From positions 1 to 32,689 of the IMG/VR virus record IMGVR_UViG_3300031521_000238: DNA of 32,689 bases. One strand, 5' to 3'. This document shows positions 1,765-13,177 of this stretch, piece by piece; position 1 is the first letter of the stretch, and each line of letters opens with the position of its first letter. Made by a program: the position numbers and the translations under genes. The notes under the pieces were generated by a model. It made no database searches and was not told the origin of the DNA. It was given only the letters and a program-made list of their open reading frames with translations. This stretch comes from a virus.

Positions 1765-2197
1765 TCCATTGACAGCTATAACCGCAAGACCAGAGTTTTG
1801 GCGGTATACCGGTAATTACTCAGTCGAAAAAGGAAAGATTCCAACAGCCGACCAGAAAAAATATACTTATTCGATGATTGTCAAGCAATTCCATATTGGA
1901 TGCCAAACGATAAGAGACGCAAAGATTGCATTATTTGGTGAATTGGTGCAACTGAATGAAGGAAAATATAATAAATTGATCGATTATCTAAAGGATAAAA
2001 TAAATAAGCCAAAATATAAGAAAGGTCTAAATATCGCTACATTGGCTGCTGAATTAGATATTAATAAGTTTACCGCCGTATCAATATCTAAGAAACTATT
2101 AGGTAAAGGAAGTGGGTATACCACTGAGGAATACGAAACCTTGAAAAATCATCTTGCAACTGTTAAGATAGAAAAAAGAGGCCCGTATAAAACTTGA
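1748..2197 (+). CDS. terS: Putative terminase small subunit / DNA-binding protein
   Basis: A 149-residue protein starting MNYHLDPLTAIT. Start chosen at ATG 1748 because AGAGGAA lies 7 nt upstream; the longer frame from 1700 has no ribosome site. The chain carries two helix-turn-helix-like stretches, one around SMIVKQFHIGCQTIRDAK and one around IATLAAELDINKFTAVS, in a basic protein. It ends in a TTGA overlap with the large terminase gene. Small terminases normally lie directly upstream of the large subunit and recognise the packaging site, so position and DNA-binding character support the call. No direct family signature is visible, and a transcriptional regulator is the alternative. Confidence 0.5.
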   Translation: MNYHLDPLTAITARPEFWRYTGNYSVEKGKIPTADQKKYTYSMIVKQFHIGCQTIRDAKIALFGELVQLNEGKYNKLIDYLKDKINKPKYKKGLNIATLAAELDINKFTAVSISKKLLGKGSGYTTEEYETLKNHLATVKIEKRGPYKT

Positions 2198-3438
2198 TAG
2201 AAATTAATTCGGTTTATAAGCAGTTATTTGGTGATGATGGGACGCTTAGGAAAGATGTCAGATATTTTGTTGAAGTAGGCGGGAGGCGATCAGCCAAGAC
2301 ACATGATGGGGCCGTGTCGCCATTGATTATTACCGCACTATCCGAGCCTGAACATTTTATACCATGCATTAGGAAGGTTGCCGCCACACTTAAGGATTCA
2401 GTGTTCTCCGAATTAACTTCTTTCAAACGAGAGCATGATATACCTGGTGCCGTCAATAAAACAGATAAAGAAATAACTTTGCCGAATGGATCTCGGTTTC
2501 GTGGGTTTGGGCTTGATGATCCAGATAAATTAAAATCACTTAGTAAGGCAACAATAATTTGGATAGAAGAAGCTAACGAATTATCCGAGTCAGATTTTGA
2601 TAGTATAGACGCTGGATTGTCTCCCGCTAAATATCCAGGTAGAATAATTTTAACATTCAATCCGATGCCACAAATACCGGGGTCATTGCATTGGCTACAG
2701 CGTCGCTTCCTTCAATGCCCATACGAATTATCCAAGGCATATGTTGACCAAAAGACCAATGCGCTTGTATTGCGTACATGGTACAAAGATAATAAGTTTT
2801 GCCCGCCTGAAACGGTTAAGGTTTTAGAGGGATACGAAAAGACTAATCCAGAACTTTACAAACTTTGGGCCTTAGGTGAATTTACCAAACTTGAAGGCGT
2901 AGTATTTGACAATTGGGATATTGCGCCTTGTGTGCCTGATGGTATTGTTAATGATTCGCAAGGATGCGCCGTAGATTTTGGATTTAGCAACGATCCCGCC
3001 GCATGTGTAAGGCTATGGATTTATAATAACGATATCTACGCCAAGCAATTAGTTTATAAAACTGGACTTCATAATCAAATGTTATTTAATGAAATGAAGG
3101 CGGCGGGGGTTGAAGAGTTTGAAAGAGTAGTAGCGGATAGCGCAAGGCCAGACATTATTAGCGACCTGAAAGATTTGGGGATTAAAGGTATTGATGGTGT
3201 TAAAAAATACTCAGGTTATAAAGAAGAAGTAGCCAATAGAATAAAATCGTATAATATTCATATAGTCGAAGGATCAACGGATTTAATAAGAGAAATATCG
3301 ACATATTCGTGGATGAGAGATAAAAACGGAAAGCAATTACCAAAACTGCAAGACGGAGAAGATCACGCAATTGACTGCATTTTGATGTTTTGCTCTGACT
3401 TCGTTAAAGCCCCTAAGTTTGAAATGTTCTTTGTTTAG
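2194..3438 (+). CDS. terL: Terminase large subunit (ATPase-nuclease)
   Basis: DNA-packaging motor of the Terminase_3/PBSX XtmB type, 414 residues. N-terminal ATPase: Walker A GGRRSAKT at residues 29-36, Walker B-like TIIWIEEANE near 119-128, and the coupling motif ILTFNPMP near 150. C-terminal RNase H-like nuclease: acidic residues in GCAVDFGFSND (about 257-267), in VVADSARPDII, and in GEDHAIDCI near the end. Start is TTG at 2194 in a TTGA overlap with the upstream gene. No strong ribosome site is visible, so translation is probably coupled. Length is normal for the family. The opposite-strand frame at 2214-2660 is a shadow. Confidence 0.95.
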   Translation: MIEINSVYKQLFGDDGTLRKDVRYFVEVGGRRSAKTHDGAVSPLIITALSEPEHFIPCIRKVAATLKDSVFSELTSFKREHDIPGAVNKTDKEITLPNGSRFRGFGLDDPDKLKSLSKATIIWIEEANELSESDFDSIDAGLSPAKYPGRIILTFNPMPQIPGSLHWLQRRFLQCPYELSKAYVDQKTNALVLRTWYKDNKFCPPETVKVLEGYEKTNPELYKLWALGEFTKLEGVVFDNWDIAPCVPDGIVNDSQGCAVDFGFSNDPAACVRLWIYNNDIYAKQLVYKTGLHNQMLFNEMKAAGVEEFERVVADSARPDIISDLKDLGIKGIDGVKKYSGYKEEVANRIKSYNIHIVEGSTDLIREISTYSWMRDKNGKQLPKLQDGEDHAIDCILMFCSDFVKAPKFEMFFV

Positions 3439-3598: not shown

Positions 3599-5752
3599 AT
3601 GGGCCTATTTGATCGCATCCAATCTAATGGCAAAGTATTGTCATGGGCTAAATCTACCATTAGCAAGATGAGCCAACAAGTAGCCGACTCGATTAGAAGT
3701 ATATTCCAGGTTAAATGGAGTTATTCGGCGAGACGCGATGCATTGGCCTATTTGGAGATGTTCCACACTTCCCCAAGATTAAATGCCGTTGATATTATAG
3801 CAAATGATGAGGCTAACGTAGTTTTTAAGGTATACAAAAAATCAGACTTGCGAATGGGTAAGGATGATGCTGAACCAATTGCGGACCATCCTATTTATGA
3901 ATTATTAGAAAACCCGATACCTTCACGGCAAGACTTTGACGGGTTTACTATTCGCTATTTAACCCGTGTGTGGCTTGAGTTGCAAGGCGATTGTTATTGG
4001 GTGGTAGTGCGTGATCGATTAGGCCAGCCCCGTGAAATATATCCTATACCATCCAATTGGGTAATTTCAGCACCGACTATTTCAATGCCTTATTTTTTAG
4101 TAATGCCACAAGGTAATACCGCATCCCAAACATTAGAGATTGCGCCGGAAAATGTTATATGGTTTAAGACTCCTAATGTCGCGCAACCATATGCGCGTGG
4201 ACGTGGGCGTGCCGAAGTTGTGGGCGATGAAATTGAATCGGATGAATATGCCGCCAAATATGGAAAAAACTTTTTCTTTAACGATGCCACGCCACGATCA
4301 ATAATCACTGCCCCGGGTGCTAATGAGGCATCGGTCAAGGCATTAAAGGAAACATGGAACCAACAATATCAGGGTGTATCTAATGCCCAAAAAATGGGCG
4401 TGCTTGGATGGGATGCGAAACTTTTGCAGCTTTCCACAAGCCCCAAGGAAATGGATTTTACTGCTACCCGTACTTTATTGCGGGATATGGTCAACCAGAA
4501 TTGGCAAATACCTCCTGAGATTTTTGGGATATTAGAATCAAGCAACCGCAGTACCATAGACTCTGCATTTTATCTATACGCAAAAAATGTTTTAAGCAAA
4601 AGACTATTGCGCTTTGAATCGTTTATTAATCGCCAACTTATGCCTATGTATGGCAAAGATTGCGCAATTAAGTTTGACAATATCATACCGGAAGATCATG
4701 AGTTTGCTTTGACAATGGCTAACGCTGGATGGGAAAAAGGTACTATTACCCGTGGCGAATGGCGTACTAAAGTAGGTATGGGCAAATTAGGCAATACACT
4801 TGATGATGAGATTGTTATGTCTTATAGCCTTATACCTCAGAACATAAATGAGCCGTCGCCAGATCCTAAGTCTGTAGTTATTCCCACTGACCAACAGGCG
4901 GGCAATGATGAGCCAATAAAACCATCCAAGCCAATTGGTCAAGATTATCCTGATGAAGAGCCTGTTAAATCAGCCAAGAAAGGATTGAATCAAGAGAGAA
5001 AATCCGCAATCTGGAATCAATTTGATAAGGCCGCAACCGCACAGGAATATCCGTTTAGGCAAGCAATTAAAAAGATTGCCGATGCGCAACAGAAAGAGTT
5101 TAATAGAGAGTTTGAAGATTTAATAGGAACAGGGCTATCACCGTCTCAGGCTATGGAAAACGCCGCCGATAAGGTATTTGGTGAAGCTGCAAACAACTCA
5201 TTGAAACGTGCTTTATATAATGGGTGGATGGATTCGATGAAAGCAGGGCTTGCTTTTGCTAATGCAACCGCTGGAACTAAAATTGATTTTACCTTAGTAC
5301 AACCAGGTTTTAAGGCATGGATAGAAAAGTATGGCTTGGAACGTGCCACGCTAATTAATGAAACGTCTAAAAAACAATTAAGCAATTCTTTAAGCCAAGG
5401 CGTTCAGGACGGGGAATCGATCCTTGAATTGCAGGATCGTGTGAAAGATCAATTTGATGGATTGCGAGATTACCGTAGTGAGAGAATTTCACGAACTGAA
5501 TCTACTGCCACAATGAATAGCGGGGCGATTGATACATATAAGGCCGCTGGAATTAAAAGTAAGACTTGGCTGGCTACTATGGACGACAGGACTCGGGACG
5601 CACACGCCGAATTAGATGACCAAACAATCGATATTGATGACGATTTTAATGTGGGCGGTGATATAATGTCAGCCCCTGGATTGGGCAATGACCCCGCAGA
5701 AAATATAAATTGCCGCTGTACCGTGATAGCCTCATTTGAGGATAAAGAATAA
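3599..5752 (+). CDS. Portal protein fused to Mu gpF-like minor head domain
   Basis: 717 residues. The first ~400 are an HK97-type portal: the dodecameric ring at the capsid vertex through which DNA passes, with typical segments such as NAVDIIANDEANV, DHPIYELLENP and VNQNWQIPPEIFGI. A charged, Pro/Lys/Asp-rich linker follows at about 420-465, then a helical region, then a C-terminal Mu gpF-like module (~600-717). That module shows RTESTATMNSGA, TWLATMDDRTRDAHAELDDQ and the closing PAENINCRC. The frame is open throughout, with no stop or frameshift at the junction. These are usually two adjacent genes, so it is either a genuine fusion or a precursor cut later. AAGGG precedes the ATG at 8 nt. 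The next small gene overlaps by one base (TAATG). Confidence 0.93.
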   Translation: MGLFDRIQSNGKVLSWAKSTISKMSQQVADSIRSIFQVKWSYSARRDALAYLEMFHTSPRLNAVDIIANDEANVVFKVYKKSDLRMGKDDAEPIADHPIYELLENPIPSRQDFDGFTIRYLTRVWLELQGDCYWVVVRDRLGQPREIYPIPSNWVISAPTISMPYFLVMPQGNTASQTLEIAPENVIWFKTPNVAQPYARGRGRAEVVGDEIESDEYAAKYGKNFFFNDATPRSIITAPGANEASVKALKETWNQQYQGVSNAQKMGVLGWDAKLLQLSTSPKEMDFTATRTLLRDMVNQNWQIPPEIFGILESSNRSTIDSAFYLYAKNVLSKRLLRFESFINRQLMPMYGKDCAIKFDNIIPEDHEFALTMANAGWEKGTITRGEWRTKVGMGKLGNTLDDEIVMSYSLIPQNINEPSPDPKSVVIPTDQQAGNDEPIKPSKPIGQDYPDEEPVKSAKKGLNQERKSAIWNQFDKAATAQEYPFRQAIKKIADAQQKEFNREFEDLIGTGLSPSQAMENAADKVFGEAANNSLKRALYNGWMDSMKAGLAFANATAGTKIDFTLVQPGFKAWIEKYGLERATLINETSKKQLSNSLSQGVQDGESILELQDRVKDQFDGLRDYRSERISRTESTATMNSGAIDTYKAAGIKSKTWLATMDDRTRDAHAELDDQTIDIDDDFNVGGDIMSAPGLGNDPAENINCRCTVIASFEDKE

Positions 5753-9840: not shown

Positions 9841-10092
9841 TTAATTAATCCCATTATCCAATAATTCTAAGTCATCGTCAAAGTCTGACTCATCAATTGA
9901 ATTGATTTTTTCAATGCCAGTTTTTAGGATTTCTATAATAAAATCCTCATCTCCAATTACATCGTCCATTTTCATTAATTCGCTGGCTTCAAATTGATCA
10001 TTAGCGACAATCATAAATAATTCGCCATCGTTAATGGTTAATGTAATCGAAACATTTTGATTAGCATTCAATAAATCAATTAATTGTTTCAT
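9841..10092 (-). CDS. Small acidic protein of the minus-strand cassette
   Basis: 83 residues starting MKQLIDLLNANQNVSITLTI. A short beta-rich N-terminal half (SITLTINDGELFMIVAN) is followed by a strongly acidic C-terminal half (many D/E, DFDDDLELLD). No domain recognised. It overlaps the end of the upstream RHH gene by 17 nt, so the two are co-expressed, and its 3' end faces the bidirectional terminator. Pairing of a basic DNA-binding RHH with an acidic partner recalls regulator/partner or antitoxin/toxin pairs, but no toxin signature is present. Confidence 0.6.
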   Translation of the reverse strand: MKQLIDLLNANQNVSITLTINDGELFMIVANDQFEASELMKMDDVIGDEDFIIEILKTGIEKINSIDESDFDDDLELLDNGIN

Positions 10093-10318
10093 TTTTCTTT
10101 GACTTCTTTATGATTTGACCGCTCAACTCGGCCTCACCATGCATTAAACCAATGGACGGCTTACCACCAGACCCCATATCGCTAATCACAGGCTTTTGAT
10201 AATCAACTGCCTCTTCTACCATATCAGCAAGCAAGCGGTTGATTGTTCGATTCTTTTGGATAGCTTTAATTTTGAATCGGTCCCATACGTTTTGATCTAC
10301 TGGAATGTCACAATGCAT
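10076..10318 (-). CDS. Ribbon-helix-helix DNA-binding protein
   Basis: 80 residues starting MHCDIPVDQNVWDRFKIKAI. The N-terminal strand plus two helices (to about residue 38, VEEAV) match the Arc/MetJ-type ribbon-helix-helix fold. The C-terminal 40 residues are a flexible basic tail. Start set at ATG 10318 because GGGGG lies 7 nt upstream; the longer 119-residue frame has no ribosome site and runs through the promoter. It is transcribed against the structural operon with its own consensus-like promoter. RHH proteins usually bind operators as dimers of dimers and regulate their own gene. A matching inverted repeat sits in its promoter. It could be a phage moron regulator or an antitoxin. Confidence 0.7.
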   Translation of the reverse strand: MHCDIPVDQNVWDRFKIKAIQKNRTINRLLADMVEEAVDYQKPVISDMGSGGKPSIGLMHGEAELSGQIIKKSKKNETIN

Positions 10319-10342
10319 AATTAATCCCCCATAAATTAAGCC

Positions 10343-10371: not shown

Positions 10372-10440
10372 CCATTAGTGATAAATATGTAAAAATGGAA
10401 TTACTATACATTATGGACATTTTGCAACTAATCATCTATT

Positions 10441-10992
10441 ATGAACGGCATGGGAATGTTGCCACGGACAATACTTGACTTGCTCCAAAATCAGTATAAG
10501 CACGAGTCGGCCAATCACTTTAGATATATAGCCCGATCATCTTGGGCTAATAAACGTGGTTTTAATAATACAGCCGTCTATTTTGCAAAAGAAGCTAATG
10601 GGGAGTTAAAGCATTCAAGTATTGTTCGGGACTACATTGAACAAAGAAATGAAGCAGTAGAGCCAAGCGGTTTTGCTTTTGATGATTCGAGTATTTTCAA
10701 AACATTCGATGAGCTTTTCACGACTGCCTTAAAAGTTGAACAAGAAACCACTGACCTATTGAATAACATTTATCAAGAAGCGATTGCTGTTGGCGATTTT
10801 ATGACGTCAACTTGGGTACAGCAACTGATTACCGAGCAAATCGAAGAGGAAAATATTTACCAAACAATTATTGACCGAATGATTCAGCGTGGTGGTGGCG
10901 GCGATGAAGTTACCGCATTAAACAATTTCCGAAAGGATCAATCGGCGTCGCATGACCTTGATGCGTGGATAGGTGAAACATTTAATGACTAA
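10441..10992 (+). CDS. Ferritin (non-heme, diiron ferroxidase type)
   Basis: 183 residues forming a four-helix ferritin that can be aligned along its length with E. coli FtnA. The ferroxidase ligands are all present: E22 (YKHES), E55 and H58 (NGELKH), E100 (LKVEQ), Q133 (TEQIEEE) and E136 for a third site. A Gly-rich D-E turn (QRGGGGDE) and a short last helix follow, then a ~16-residue tail. Such proteins oxidise Fe(II) and store it as ferric mineral in 24-mer shells. No heme-ligand Met is seen, so it is not a bacterioferritin. The start is uncertain: ATG 10441 lacks a ribosome site, and Met6 (10456) aligns best with the FtnA start. The 3' end overlaps the protease start by 8 nt, placing it in the capsid operon. 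Confidence 0.88.
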   Translation: MNGMGMLPRTILDLLQNQYKHESANHFRYIARSSWANKRGFNNTAVYFAKEANGELKHSSIVRDYIEQRNEAVEPSGFAFDDSSIFKTFDELFTTALKVEQETTDLLNNIYQEAIAVGDFMTSTWVQQLITEQIEEENIYQTIIDRMIQRGGGGDEVTALNNFRKDQSASHDLDAWIGETFND

Positions 10993-11938
10993 AGAAAAGA
11001 TCGGCAAGTTTACCGTCAAGCAAGTCGGCGCTGAATCTGATCGTGTATTGCGATTTATTGGCACCGATGAAAGTGAAGATCGTGACGGGGACATTATCAA
11101 GGCTAATGGCTGGAAGTTTGAAAACTTTTTTAAGAATCCAGTTTTTTTGCCATTCCACGATTACAGCAAAGTTCCAATTGGTAAGTGTATAAACGTTCAG
11201 CAATCTCCCGGTTCAACTGGCACAAGTTTTGATATTAAGTTTCCCAGTATTTCCGAATTGTGTAGCGATCCTGAGCATCCAAGCCAAGAGGCAAAATTAG
11301 CTGATACCATTTATATGGCATATAAACATGGTTACATGAATGCCGTTTCTGTTGGCTTTATTGGCCTCGAATCGGTTAAACGTGAAGATCAAAAAGAATT
11401 ACCCGACTGGATGCGCGGGAATATTTTTACCTCTCAGGAATTGCTTGAACTGTCAGCCGTATCCGTTCCCTCTAATCCAAATGCATTACTACAAGCAAGG
11501 TCCGCCAAGGGAATGAAGCCTGACCAATTAAAGATGCTTGAAGAAATACTAAAAGAAAAACCTAACCAGGAGGCCGAAGAAATGACGCCCGATCAAGTAG
11601 AGAAATCAATAGCCGAGGCAATTAAACCATTGCAAGAAGAAATCAAGGCATTGAAAGAAGAAAAGCAACTGCACGCACAAGAAAAAGCAGGGGCAAAGAT
11701 TAGCGCCGATACCAAGAAACAAATGCAGGAATGCTATGACCATGTATCAAAGGGCATCGGTGTTCTAAAAGGTTTGATGGATGGTAGCGGTGAAGAGCCA
11801 GAGGGCCAAGTATCCGATAAACCAGGTACTGAACAAAGCCCCAATGTGCCAGCGCCAGAGAAAACTTATAAAGGGATCGATCTAAATAAGATTGATTTTA
11901 AGAAATATGAATCCGCTTCTGCCTCGAAAGCAGAATAA
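10985..11938 (+). CDS. HK97-type prohead protease with C-terminal coiled-coil extension
   Basis: Peptidase S78 (U35) family; it cuts the capsid protein's scaffold region during maturation. ATG 10985 is chosen because AGGTGA (10971-10976) lies 8 nt upstream. The GTG at 10973 is in frame but less likely. Catalytic His58 is in PFHDYS, catalytic Ser122 in AVSVGF, and LSAVSVPSNPNAL follows, all typical. Residues after about 175 form a long charged helical region (EAEEMTPDQVEKSIAEAI, IKALKEEKQL) and a Pro/Gly/Glu-rich tail to residue 317, which could serve as an internal scaffold. Overlap with the ferritin gene couples the two translations. Confidence 0.92.
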   Translation: MTKEKIGKFTVKQVGAESDRVLRFIGTDESEDRDGDIIKANGWKFENFFKNPVFLPFHDYSKVPIGKCINVQQSPGSTGTSFDIKFPSISELCSDPEHPSQEAKLADTIYMAYKHGYMNAVSVGFIGLESVKREDQKELPDWMRGNIFTSQELLELSAVSVPSNPNALLQARSAKGMKPDQLKMLEEILKEKPNQEAEEMTPDQVEKSIAEAIKPLQEEIKALKEEKQLHAQEKAGAKISADTKKQMQECYDHVSKGIGVLKGLMDGSGEEPEGQVSDKPGTEQSPNVPAPEKTYKGIDLNKIDFKKYESASASKAE

Positions 11939-11956: not shown

Positions 11957-13177
11957 ATGTCGGAAGTTGCCAAAACTGCCGCCGAAGTACAGTTTGAATC
12001 TCTGCTTGCTCAGGCAGAGGCTAAAGGCGCTAAAGAAGCCTTGGATAAATTAGCCGCAGGCACCGTTGATAAAAGTATCGGCGCTGCTATTACTGGCGGT
12101 TCTATTGATCCTGTCGATCCTGTATTTGGCGATGTTGTTTGTCCCAAGGAAATTACCGCCGCTCGTTTCGTAAAATTGCTTGCCCGCTCTGGTGGCAATG
12201 CTGACCGCATGAGTGAGTTTGCCAAGGCCATGCATCCCCATGATAAGCTGTTGTATCAGTCTATCGGTCAAAAAGCATTGGGCGCAAATATCCCAAGCGA
12301 TGGTGGTATTACCGTACCTCAGATTTTAGCGTCTGAAATCATTATGCCATTGTATACCAAGATTGGCGTTACTAAACTTGGTGGCCGTCGCGTGCCTCTG
12401 TTGAATGGTAATATGACCTTGCCCCGTATTGACACCTCTGCATCCGTTGGCTGGATTGGTGAAAATGCCGTGGCCGGTGTATCTCAGCAAGTAACTGGCG
12501 ATACTAAATTGAACGTCAAGAAATTGGGCGTTATTACTCCGATCAGCAATGATTTACTCCGCTCCGCCGATATTGCCGCCGACCAATGGGTATTGGATGA
12601 TATCCGCAATCGTATGTTTGTCGAAATGGATCGGGCCATGTTGTACGGTAGCAATAGCCAGTATCAGCCCGGTGGATTGGCTACTTTGTTGCCTTCTGCG
12701 AATATTCAGGGATCCAGCTCCACGGCATTTACTACCACTTTAATTACCACCTTGTATGGTGCTTTGCAACAGGCTAATGTAATGTTCCTGAGTCCCGGAA
12801 TTATCATCAATGGCGCTACCGAATCGTATCTGATGAACTTGACTACCACTACCGGTGCATTCTTGTTCTATCAGGAAATGGTCCAGAACAAGACTATCCG
12901 TGGCATTCCTTATGCAGTTTCCAACAATGCATCCTATACCGCTGGTAGCCCTGCCTATGTTGACTTCTTCATTGGCGACTGGTCCGAGTTTATCATCGGT
13001 ACCCAAGGCGATTTGATGGTAGAAACCAGCCGCGATGGTTCCTATGAATCCGGTGGATCGACCTATAGCGCCCTGTCCCGTGACCAGACTATTGTTCGTG
13101 TGTTGAGCTTGCAGGATTACGCAATCCGCCATACTGCATCGTTTATTATGTATACCGCTAAACTGGCAACCAGCTAA
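11957..13177 (+). CDS. Major capsid protein, HK97 fold
   Basis: 406 residues. The N-terminal ~100 residues are helical and Ala/Lys/Glu-rich (FESLLAQAEAKGAKEALD), like the removable delta domain. The core begins about residue 110 with PSDGGITVPQILASEIIMP. Other typical marks are VGWIGENAVAG, LGVITPISNDLLRSAD, MDRAMLYGSN and the final RHTASFIMYTAKLA. The start has a perfect AGGAGGT ribosome site. Codon use is shifted to CGT/CGC, CTG and GGT, consistent with the highest expression. The assembled shell would be built by this protein and processed by the upstream protease. Confidence 0.95.
   Translation: MSEVAKTAAEVQFESLLAQAEAKGAKEALDKLAAGTVDKSIGAAITGGSIDPVDPVFGDVVCPKEITAARFVKLLARSGGNADRMSEFAKAMHPHDKLLYQSIGQKALGANIPSDGGITVPQILASEIIMPLYTKIGVTKLGGRRVPLLNGNMTLPRIDTSASVGWIGENAVAGVSQQVTGDTKLNVKKLGVITPISNDLLRSADIAADQWVLDDIRNRMFVEMDRAMLYGSNSQYQPGGLATLLPSANIQGSSSTAFTTTLITTLYGALQQANVMFLSPGIIINGATESYLMNLTTTTGAFLFYQEMVQNKTIRGIPYAVSNNASYTAGSPAYVDFFIGDWSEFIIGTQGDLMVETSRDGSYESGGSTYSALSRDQTIVRVLSLQDYAIRHTASFIMYTAKLATS

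Follow-up and report, generated by a model that had tools for sequence, protein, structure and literature searches.

In the window, the whole 32,689-base stretch of a virus record that was analyzed, a complete ferritin with an intact ferroxidase site is the first gene of a rightward run that leads into the prohead protease and the capsid, and related ferritins in other phages are found again and again next to the portal gene. Ferritin is a protein cage and the iron store of cells, and the standard models of head assembly include no iron handling. That distantly related phages keep a ferritin beside the portal points to a link between iron handling and either particle assembly or the time at which DNA is packaged. 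The finding also bears on a possible iron load of phage particles, as in the “Ferrojan horse” idea, and on the origin of the partnership between an HK97 shell and ferritin-like cargo in encapsulins. No report of a ferritin conserved at the portal was found in the open-access full text searched (subscription papers and preprints lay outside its scope), and the “ferritin” genes found at this position in cultured phages are divergent throughout and have no recognizable ligands.

A complete ferritin with an intact iron site

The open reading frame at 10441-10992 on the plus strand (183 amino acids) matches the Pfam Ferritin family PF00210 with 61.9 bits against a cut-off of 24.5 (Table 1), and the closest solved structures are those of bacterial non-heme ferritins, for example, Escherichia coli FtnA (E=5e-13). 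The frame itself, as given in an earlier note on this DNA, is real, with a correction to its start. Position 10441 is merely where the longest frame begins; since the relatives all begin at a Met aligned with M4 of the window protein, translation probably starts at 10450, for a protein of 180 residues.

The earlier note had also described the protein as a complete ferritin with every named ligand in place, and this holds up. Residues E22, E55, H58, E100, Q133, and E136 align with E17, E50, H53, E94, Q127, and E130 of FtnA, leaving ferroxidase sites A and B ligand-complete (E, E, H, E, Q, E). Relatives lacking the ligands, which were said to speak against the idea, are not seen among 18 aligned divergent phage ferritins, in which the site A and B ligands are invariant. 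What went unmentioned is site C, where E49 of FtnA is replaced by Gly in the window protein and in related head-module ferritins, and by Asp in contig L040 (L numbers denote the contigs and loci compared). Site-C E49 is a trait of FtnA and not a requirement for all ferritins. The Gly was considered as a signature of all head-linked ferritins and rejected, since the phrog_6547 group and L098 keep a Glu at this position; going by the alignment, it marks only some of the head-linked groups.

An AF2 model made from the alignment of the 18 phage ferritins (mean pLDDT 94, pTM 0.88) has the four-helix bundle and helix E expected of a maxi-ferritin (Ftn), and it fits maxi-ferritins over its full length (model residues 1-180, helix E included) with Z of about 23. 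The same full fold is shared with the bacterial non-heme ferritins of E. coli (FtnA), Vibrio cholerae, and Thermotoga maritima (rmsd 1.2-1.7), the best-described match being 3qz3 (Z 23.3, rmsd 1.2 over 163 residues). Structure prediction and alignment with FtnA, the checks that had been proposed, are thus in agreement on the ligands, and the resemblance of the model to 24-mer ferritins makes a 24-mer cage plausible. A Dps (mini-ferritin) identity was ruled out by the presence of helix E and by intra-subunit ligands aligned with those of Ftn. Compared with the bacterial non-heme ferritins, the window protein is only 22-25% identical, has the Gly at E49, and is encoded in a phage head operon.

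Purifying selection is seen in the ferritins of L017 and L018, which have a dN of 0.15 and a dS of 2.5, the latter being near saturation. The proteins of the window, L022, L038, L044, and L104 match PHROG 16594 (E 1e-11 to 3e-21), which is listed as “unknown function” and carries no function label, unlike the ferritin identity given here.

The locus in the window

Table 1. Features of the window around the ferritin gene and the head module.
Feature	Coordinates	Strand	Evidence
Terminase large subunit	2194..3438	+	PF04466 1.7e-37
Portal protein fused to Mu-F domain	3599..5752	+	PF04860 5e-49, PF04233 7e-19
Divergent small gene, no PHROG family	10076..10330	-	tblastn to L006, L007, L009, L011
Conserved promoter-like block	10391..10424	+	Alignment with ferritin-less L006; ferritin begins just downstream
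Ferritin gene (probable start)	10450..10992	+	PF00210 8e-17; start aligned with relatives’ MGxIS; AF2 pLDDT 94, Z 23 vs ferritins
Prohead (head maturation) protease	10985..11938	+	PF04586 3e-4, over cut-off; PHROG head maturation protease 1e-17
HK97-fold major capsid protein	11957..13177	+	PF05065 Phage_capsid 2.6e-33

The overlap between ferritin and protease is as the earlier note had observed: the ferritin stop codon TAA (10990-10992) overlaps the protease ATG at 10985 by 8 nt (ATGACTAA), and the protease start agrees with that of the relative L006. Its placement of the ferritin “between portal and protease” is too simple, in that tail-fibre-like genes and two minus-strand genes intervene after the portal. 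Two small divergent genes without a family are seen on the minus strand at 9841-10330, and a homologue of the second flanks the protease in ferritin-less relatives. The pattern of the promoter-like block occurs, among the fetched loci, only in L006 and in copies of the window locus. A TGGACA-17-TATTAT match is present at 10414-10442, though such matches are no commoner than in shuffles, and a leaderless transcript from the ATG at 10450 is possible. The locus is unlikely to be a chimera or an accident of assembly, because L001, a separate IMG/VR record, repeats it with 6 mismatches in 9,181 bases.

Ferritin next to the portal

Scans seeded with the ferritin yielded L017, L018, L020, L021, and L030, whose ferritins are 48-60% identical to that of the window, along with the more distant L022, L037, L038, and L040 (34-38%). 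In 9/9 of these, ferritin is the gene directly before the portal. The search for a ferritin between portal and protease in related phages, as it had been proposed, therefore has a divided outcome: relatives with the same capsid are without ferritin, and related ferritins lie directly upstream of the portal. The ferritin stop and the portal start overlap by 1 nt in L017, L018, L021, and L022 and by 4 nt in L020, L030, and L037; they are 3 nt apart in L038 and abut without overlap in L040. The window portal is 39-42% identical to the portals of L017, L018, and L020, which follow a ferritin.

A scan with the portal only, blind to ferritin, returned 8 contigs, 2 of them new (L108 and L110, in which the ferritin stop likewise overlaps or abuts the portal start). 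Because ferritin was directly before the portal in 8/8, the pair is a stable unit in the L017-type portal family. A small Cys-rich protein (CxxC ... C-R/K-x-PP ... CG) is encoded immediately upstream of the ferritin, or close to it, in L021 (82-267), L030 (426-641), L017 (1039-1311), and L018 (5065-5328). It belongs to no clear family, and a part as metal or electron-transfer partner is possible.

The neighborhood is not confined to one portal family. The phrog_2739 portals of L042, L044, and L098 are immediately followed by a ferritin, and so are the phrog_6547 portals of L103 and L104, where a 400-residue gene and a capsid gene (phrog_11589 in L104) come next. In L054, ferritin occupies the gap between the terminase and a P22-type portal, and in L046 one gene separates it from the portal that follows. 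L023, a phage with a Mu portal, has it upstream of the terminase, and in L079 it precedes the capsid gene by three genes. The same ferritin-portal layout is present in L048, L088, L092, L095, and L099, whose portals are recognized only by resemblance to scanned portals. In total, about 22 non-identical contigs have ferritin and portal as neighbors, a count drawn from unevenly sampled contigs that are mostly fragments. A crude chance product for four lineages under uniform gene order comes to about 2e-6, a value that ignores any preference of foreign genes for module borders.

In the tree, which has long branches and moderate support at the deepest splits, the phrog_6547 group is placed among cellular ferritins near FtnA, while the window clade and the phrog_2739 group are on another branch; the window ferritin itself is on a viral branch, apart from the ten sampled cellular ferritins. 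Because the AU test rejects a single origin of all head-linked ferritins (p=0.0099), the ferritin-portal neighborhood would have formed on two or more occasions, if the tree is right.

Probable acquisition in the window lineage

A scan seeded with the capsid recovered contigs whose capsid is 60-78% identical to that of the window, and no ferritin was present in these relatives, either in the fetched stretches or in the whole records, which are fragments. Since they live without the gene, ferritin is, to judge from gene content, dispensable for the window-type capsid, and in the window genome it looks like an acquisition. A random recent insertion in one genome had been named as evidence against a head-linked role; this partly applies to the window genome but not to the wider family, which is no random insertion. 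The empty site can be seen in L006, where the same divergent promoter-like block is followed directly by the protease.

The window ferritin is 58-60% identical to the ferritins of L017 and L018, compared to 39-41% for the portals. In pairs among the L017-type phages, ferritin and portal identities mostly differ little. The simplest reading would be a transfer of the ferritin from an L017-like phage into the window lineage, behind the operon promoter. The window ferritin, which overlaps the protease, is not portal-adjacent, but it nests in a portal-adjacent clade with support of 99/98. Scans of genome contigs with the capsid and ferritin alignments gave no relative and hence pointed to no host or cellular donor.

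Ferritins elsewhere in viruses

A second group of phage ferritins comprises around 10 contigs (L041, L043, L049-L053, L055, L056, L058, and L059), several of them from large phages. Here the gene is located in a common replication-type neighborhood, mostly with a ClpP-like protease gene close by; in L055 this gene matches both the phrog_94 head maturation protease and ATP-dependent proteases. Ferritin is also found elsewhere in L002 and L033, in L002 outside the head module. Because the ClpP-adjacent group and L002 are outside head modules, gene position indicates that the head is not a necessary site of action for a ferritin in phages.

The remark in the earlier note that virus-coded ferritins are unusual goes too far, as ferritin and Dps have already been annotated in phages and giant viruses. 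What the open-access literature does include is Dps in phages, ferritin in giant viruses, a single ferritin-like protein of a virion (identified by Phyre2 and mass spectrometry), and the annotation in phage PMBT24. The enzymes of gut phages (Gratiaviridae) and Lactobacillus phages are likewise phage-borne members of the ferritin superfamily, but they are Dps mini-ferritins, and those of the Lactobacillus phages are encoded near DNA metabolism genes rather than the portal (PMC8008677, PMC6669764). In the Vi01-like phage Sajous1, a ferritin-like protein, gp217, was detected by mass spectrometry in CsCl-purified phage (PMC10892097). It differs in being ferritin-like by Phyre2 only and in being encoded near a tail completion gene.

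No ligand-bearing ferritin in a head module was found among the 50,697 phage records searched. A ferritin-annotated gene takes the slot of the L042 and L044 ferritins in Enterocloster phages (PMBT24) and Thomasclavelia phages; PMBT24 ORF39 and TR-TP1 gp13 are both located 1-2 genes downstream of the portal and upstream of the capsid gene. Their ferroxidase ligands are not recognizable and their profile homology to ferritin is weak, so a relationship could not be demonstrated by profile comparison. Should this gene be a ferritin whose iron site has been lost, the head would have a use for the fold as such. Ferritin matches in five further “phage” records (OR845001, OR850087, MT836766, MT838998, and MT839617) were set aside as contaminants, being bacterial-looking DNA with cellular ferritins.

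What could a ferritin do at the phage head?

Ferritins oxidize Fe(II) and store iron. The product of the window gene would be a ferritin of the 24-subunit type that oxidizes Fe(II) and stores the ferric mineral; iron oxidation in vivo, assembly of the 24-mer, and late expression are what we infer for it. It would belong to a phage-borne lineage whose usual place is the head module, beside the portal, and which would be made along with the head proteins. In the window lineage, the gene would have been acquired and put behind the protease-capsid operon promoter, again with an overlapping stop and start. At the assembling head, the ferritin could clear reactive iron where DNA is packaged, or it could ride on or in the particle. 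That a ferritin lineage is tied to head modules, produced together with head proteins, and active at the assembling head is a proposition we consider evenly balanced. In its favor are the invariant ferroxidase ligands, the purifying selection, the overlaps with head genes, and the repeated position beside portals, all of which are observed, with Sajous1 gp217 and the ferritin-like folds among BFVD “prohead protease” entries as precedents; the ferritin-less relatives with the same capsid and the ferritins outside head modules weigh against it. Physical contact with the prohead or virion is the least certain part of it, and here the balance tips slightly toward doubt. In a bolder form, held only tentatively and with a good deal of doubt, ferritin would be a part of the head or virion that recurs among tailed phages, namely a ferroxidase cage translated together with the portal, assembling with the prohead, and recruited independently more than once. 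If true, particles would carry iron or be built under iron control, a DNA-packaging parallel to encapsulins.

A free cytoplasmic ferritin made late in infection, acting as an auxiliary metabolic gene, is a serious contender, although we would put it somewhat short of an even chance. It would store iron or protect from Fenton chemistry in the infected cell and be in the head operon only since that operon is late and strong. An intact ferroxidase site and a maxi-ferritin fold suffice for such a task, other phage ferritins and Dps are found outside head modules (PMC8008677, PMC6669764), and the ferritin of a giant virus has been interpreted as cytoplasmic iron storage or Fenton protection in the infected cell (PMC7136201). 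It does not, however, predict that the portal would be the neighbor so often, in at least three portal families and with at least two origins. Because the neighbor is so often the portal, the head-associated role is weighted slightly above the cytoplasmic one; portal adjacency may also reflect merely late expression. Neutral or opportunistic cargo, that is, a moron gene that settled at a module border where insertions are tolerated and that brings no enduring advantage, is disfavored and seems improbable. It would account for the insertion-like appearance in the window lineage, beside a conserved promoter-like block and absent from relatives, and for a ferritin about 60% identical to that of L017 when the portals are at 39%, as a later transfer would give. 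The retention of all ligands, a dN/dS far below 1, and maintenance beside the portal over deep divergence argue against it.

The head-associated role also has to be separated from that of encapsulin cargo, which the earlier note had brought to mind. Encapsulins with ferritin-like cargo (Flp, IMEF, and Bfr) do combine, as here, an HK97-fold shell with a ferritin-like protein from neighboring genes. Their cargo, mostly decamers or dimers, is loaded via a C-terminal targeting peptide (PMC8346489), and their shell is without DNA-packaging machinery, whereas the window has a maxi-ferritin beside a DNA-packaging capsid. This capsid is of the ordinary PF05065 phage type, accompanied by terminase, portal, and protease, and in the model, helix E includes the C-terminus of the window ferritin (AWIGETFND), in which there is no targeting motif. 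Membership in an encapsulin system is thus not borne out. A viral counterpart, in which an HK97 shell packs a ferritin by means of a targeting peptide, is highly improbable on the same grounds, even with capsid and ferritin sharing an operon and with the ferritins of L022 and L040 ending in WIGSL, at the helix E position, in weak resemblance to the TVGSL-type targeting motif (PMC8346489).

Additional domains in prohead proteases

The proteases of L007, L009, L011, L012, and L038 have an inserted domain of about 110-130 residues (KGAIPYKKFPLAE...LPHH...ARGGV...HY), and the insert with KGAIPYKKFPLAE is absent in the window, L006, L010, L013, and L017. A ferritin-like nature was considered for the insert of L007, L009, L011, and L012 and rejected, as the sequence does not look so. 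Among BFVD entries labeled “prohead protease,” three from uncultured Caudovirales phages (A0A6J7XDU5, A0A6J7WIS1, and A0A6J7WPK9) match the ferritin model by fold, which suggests that ferritin/Dps domains are fused to prohead proteases in these entries.
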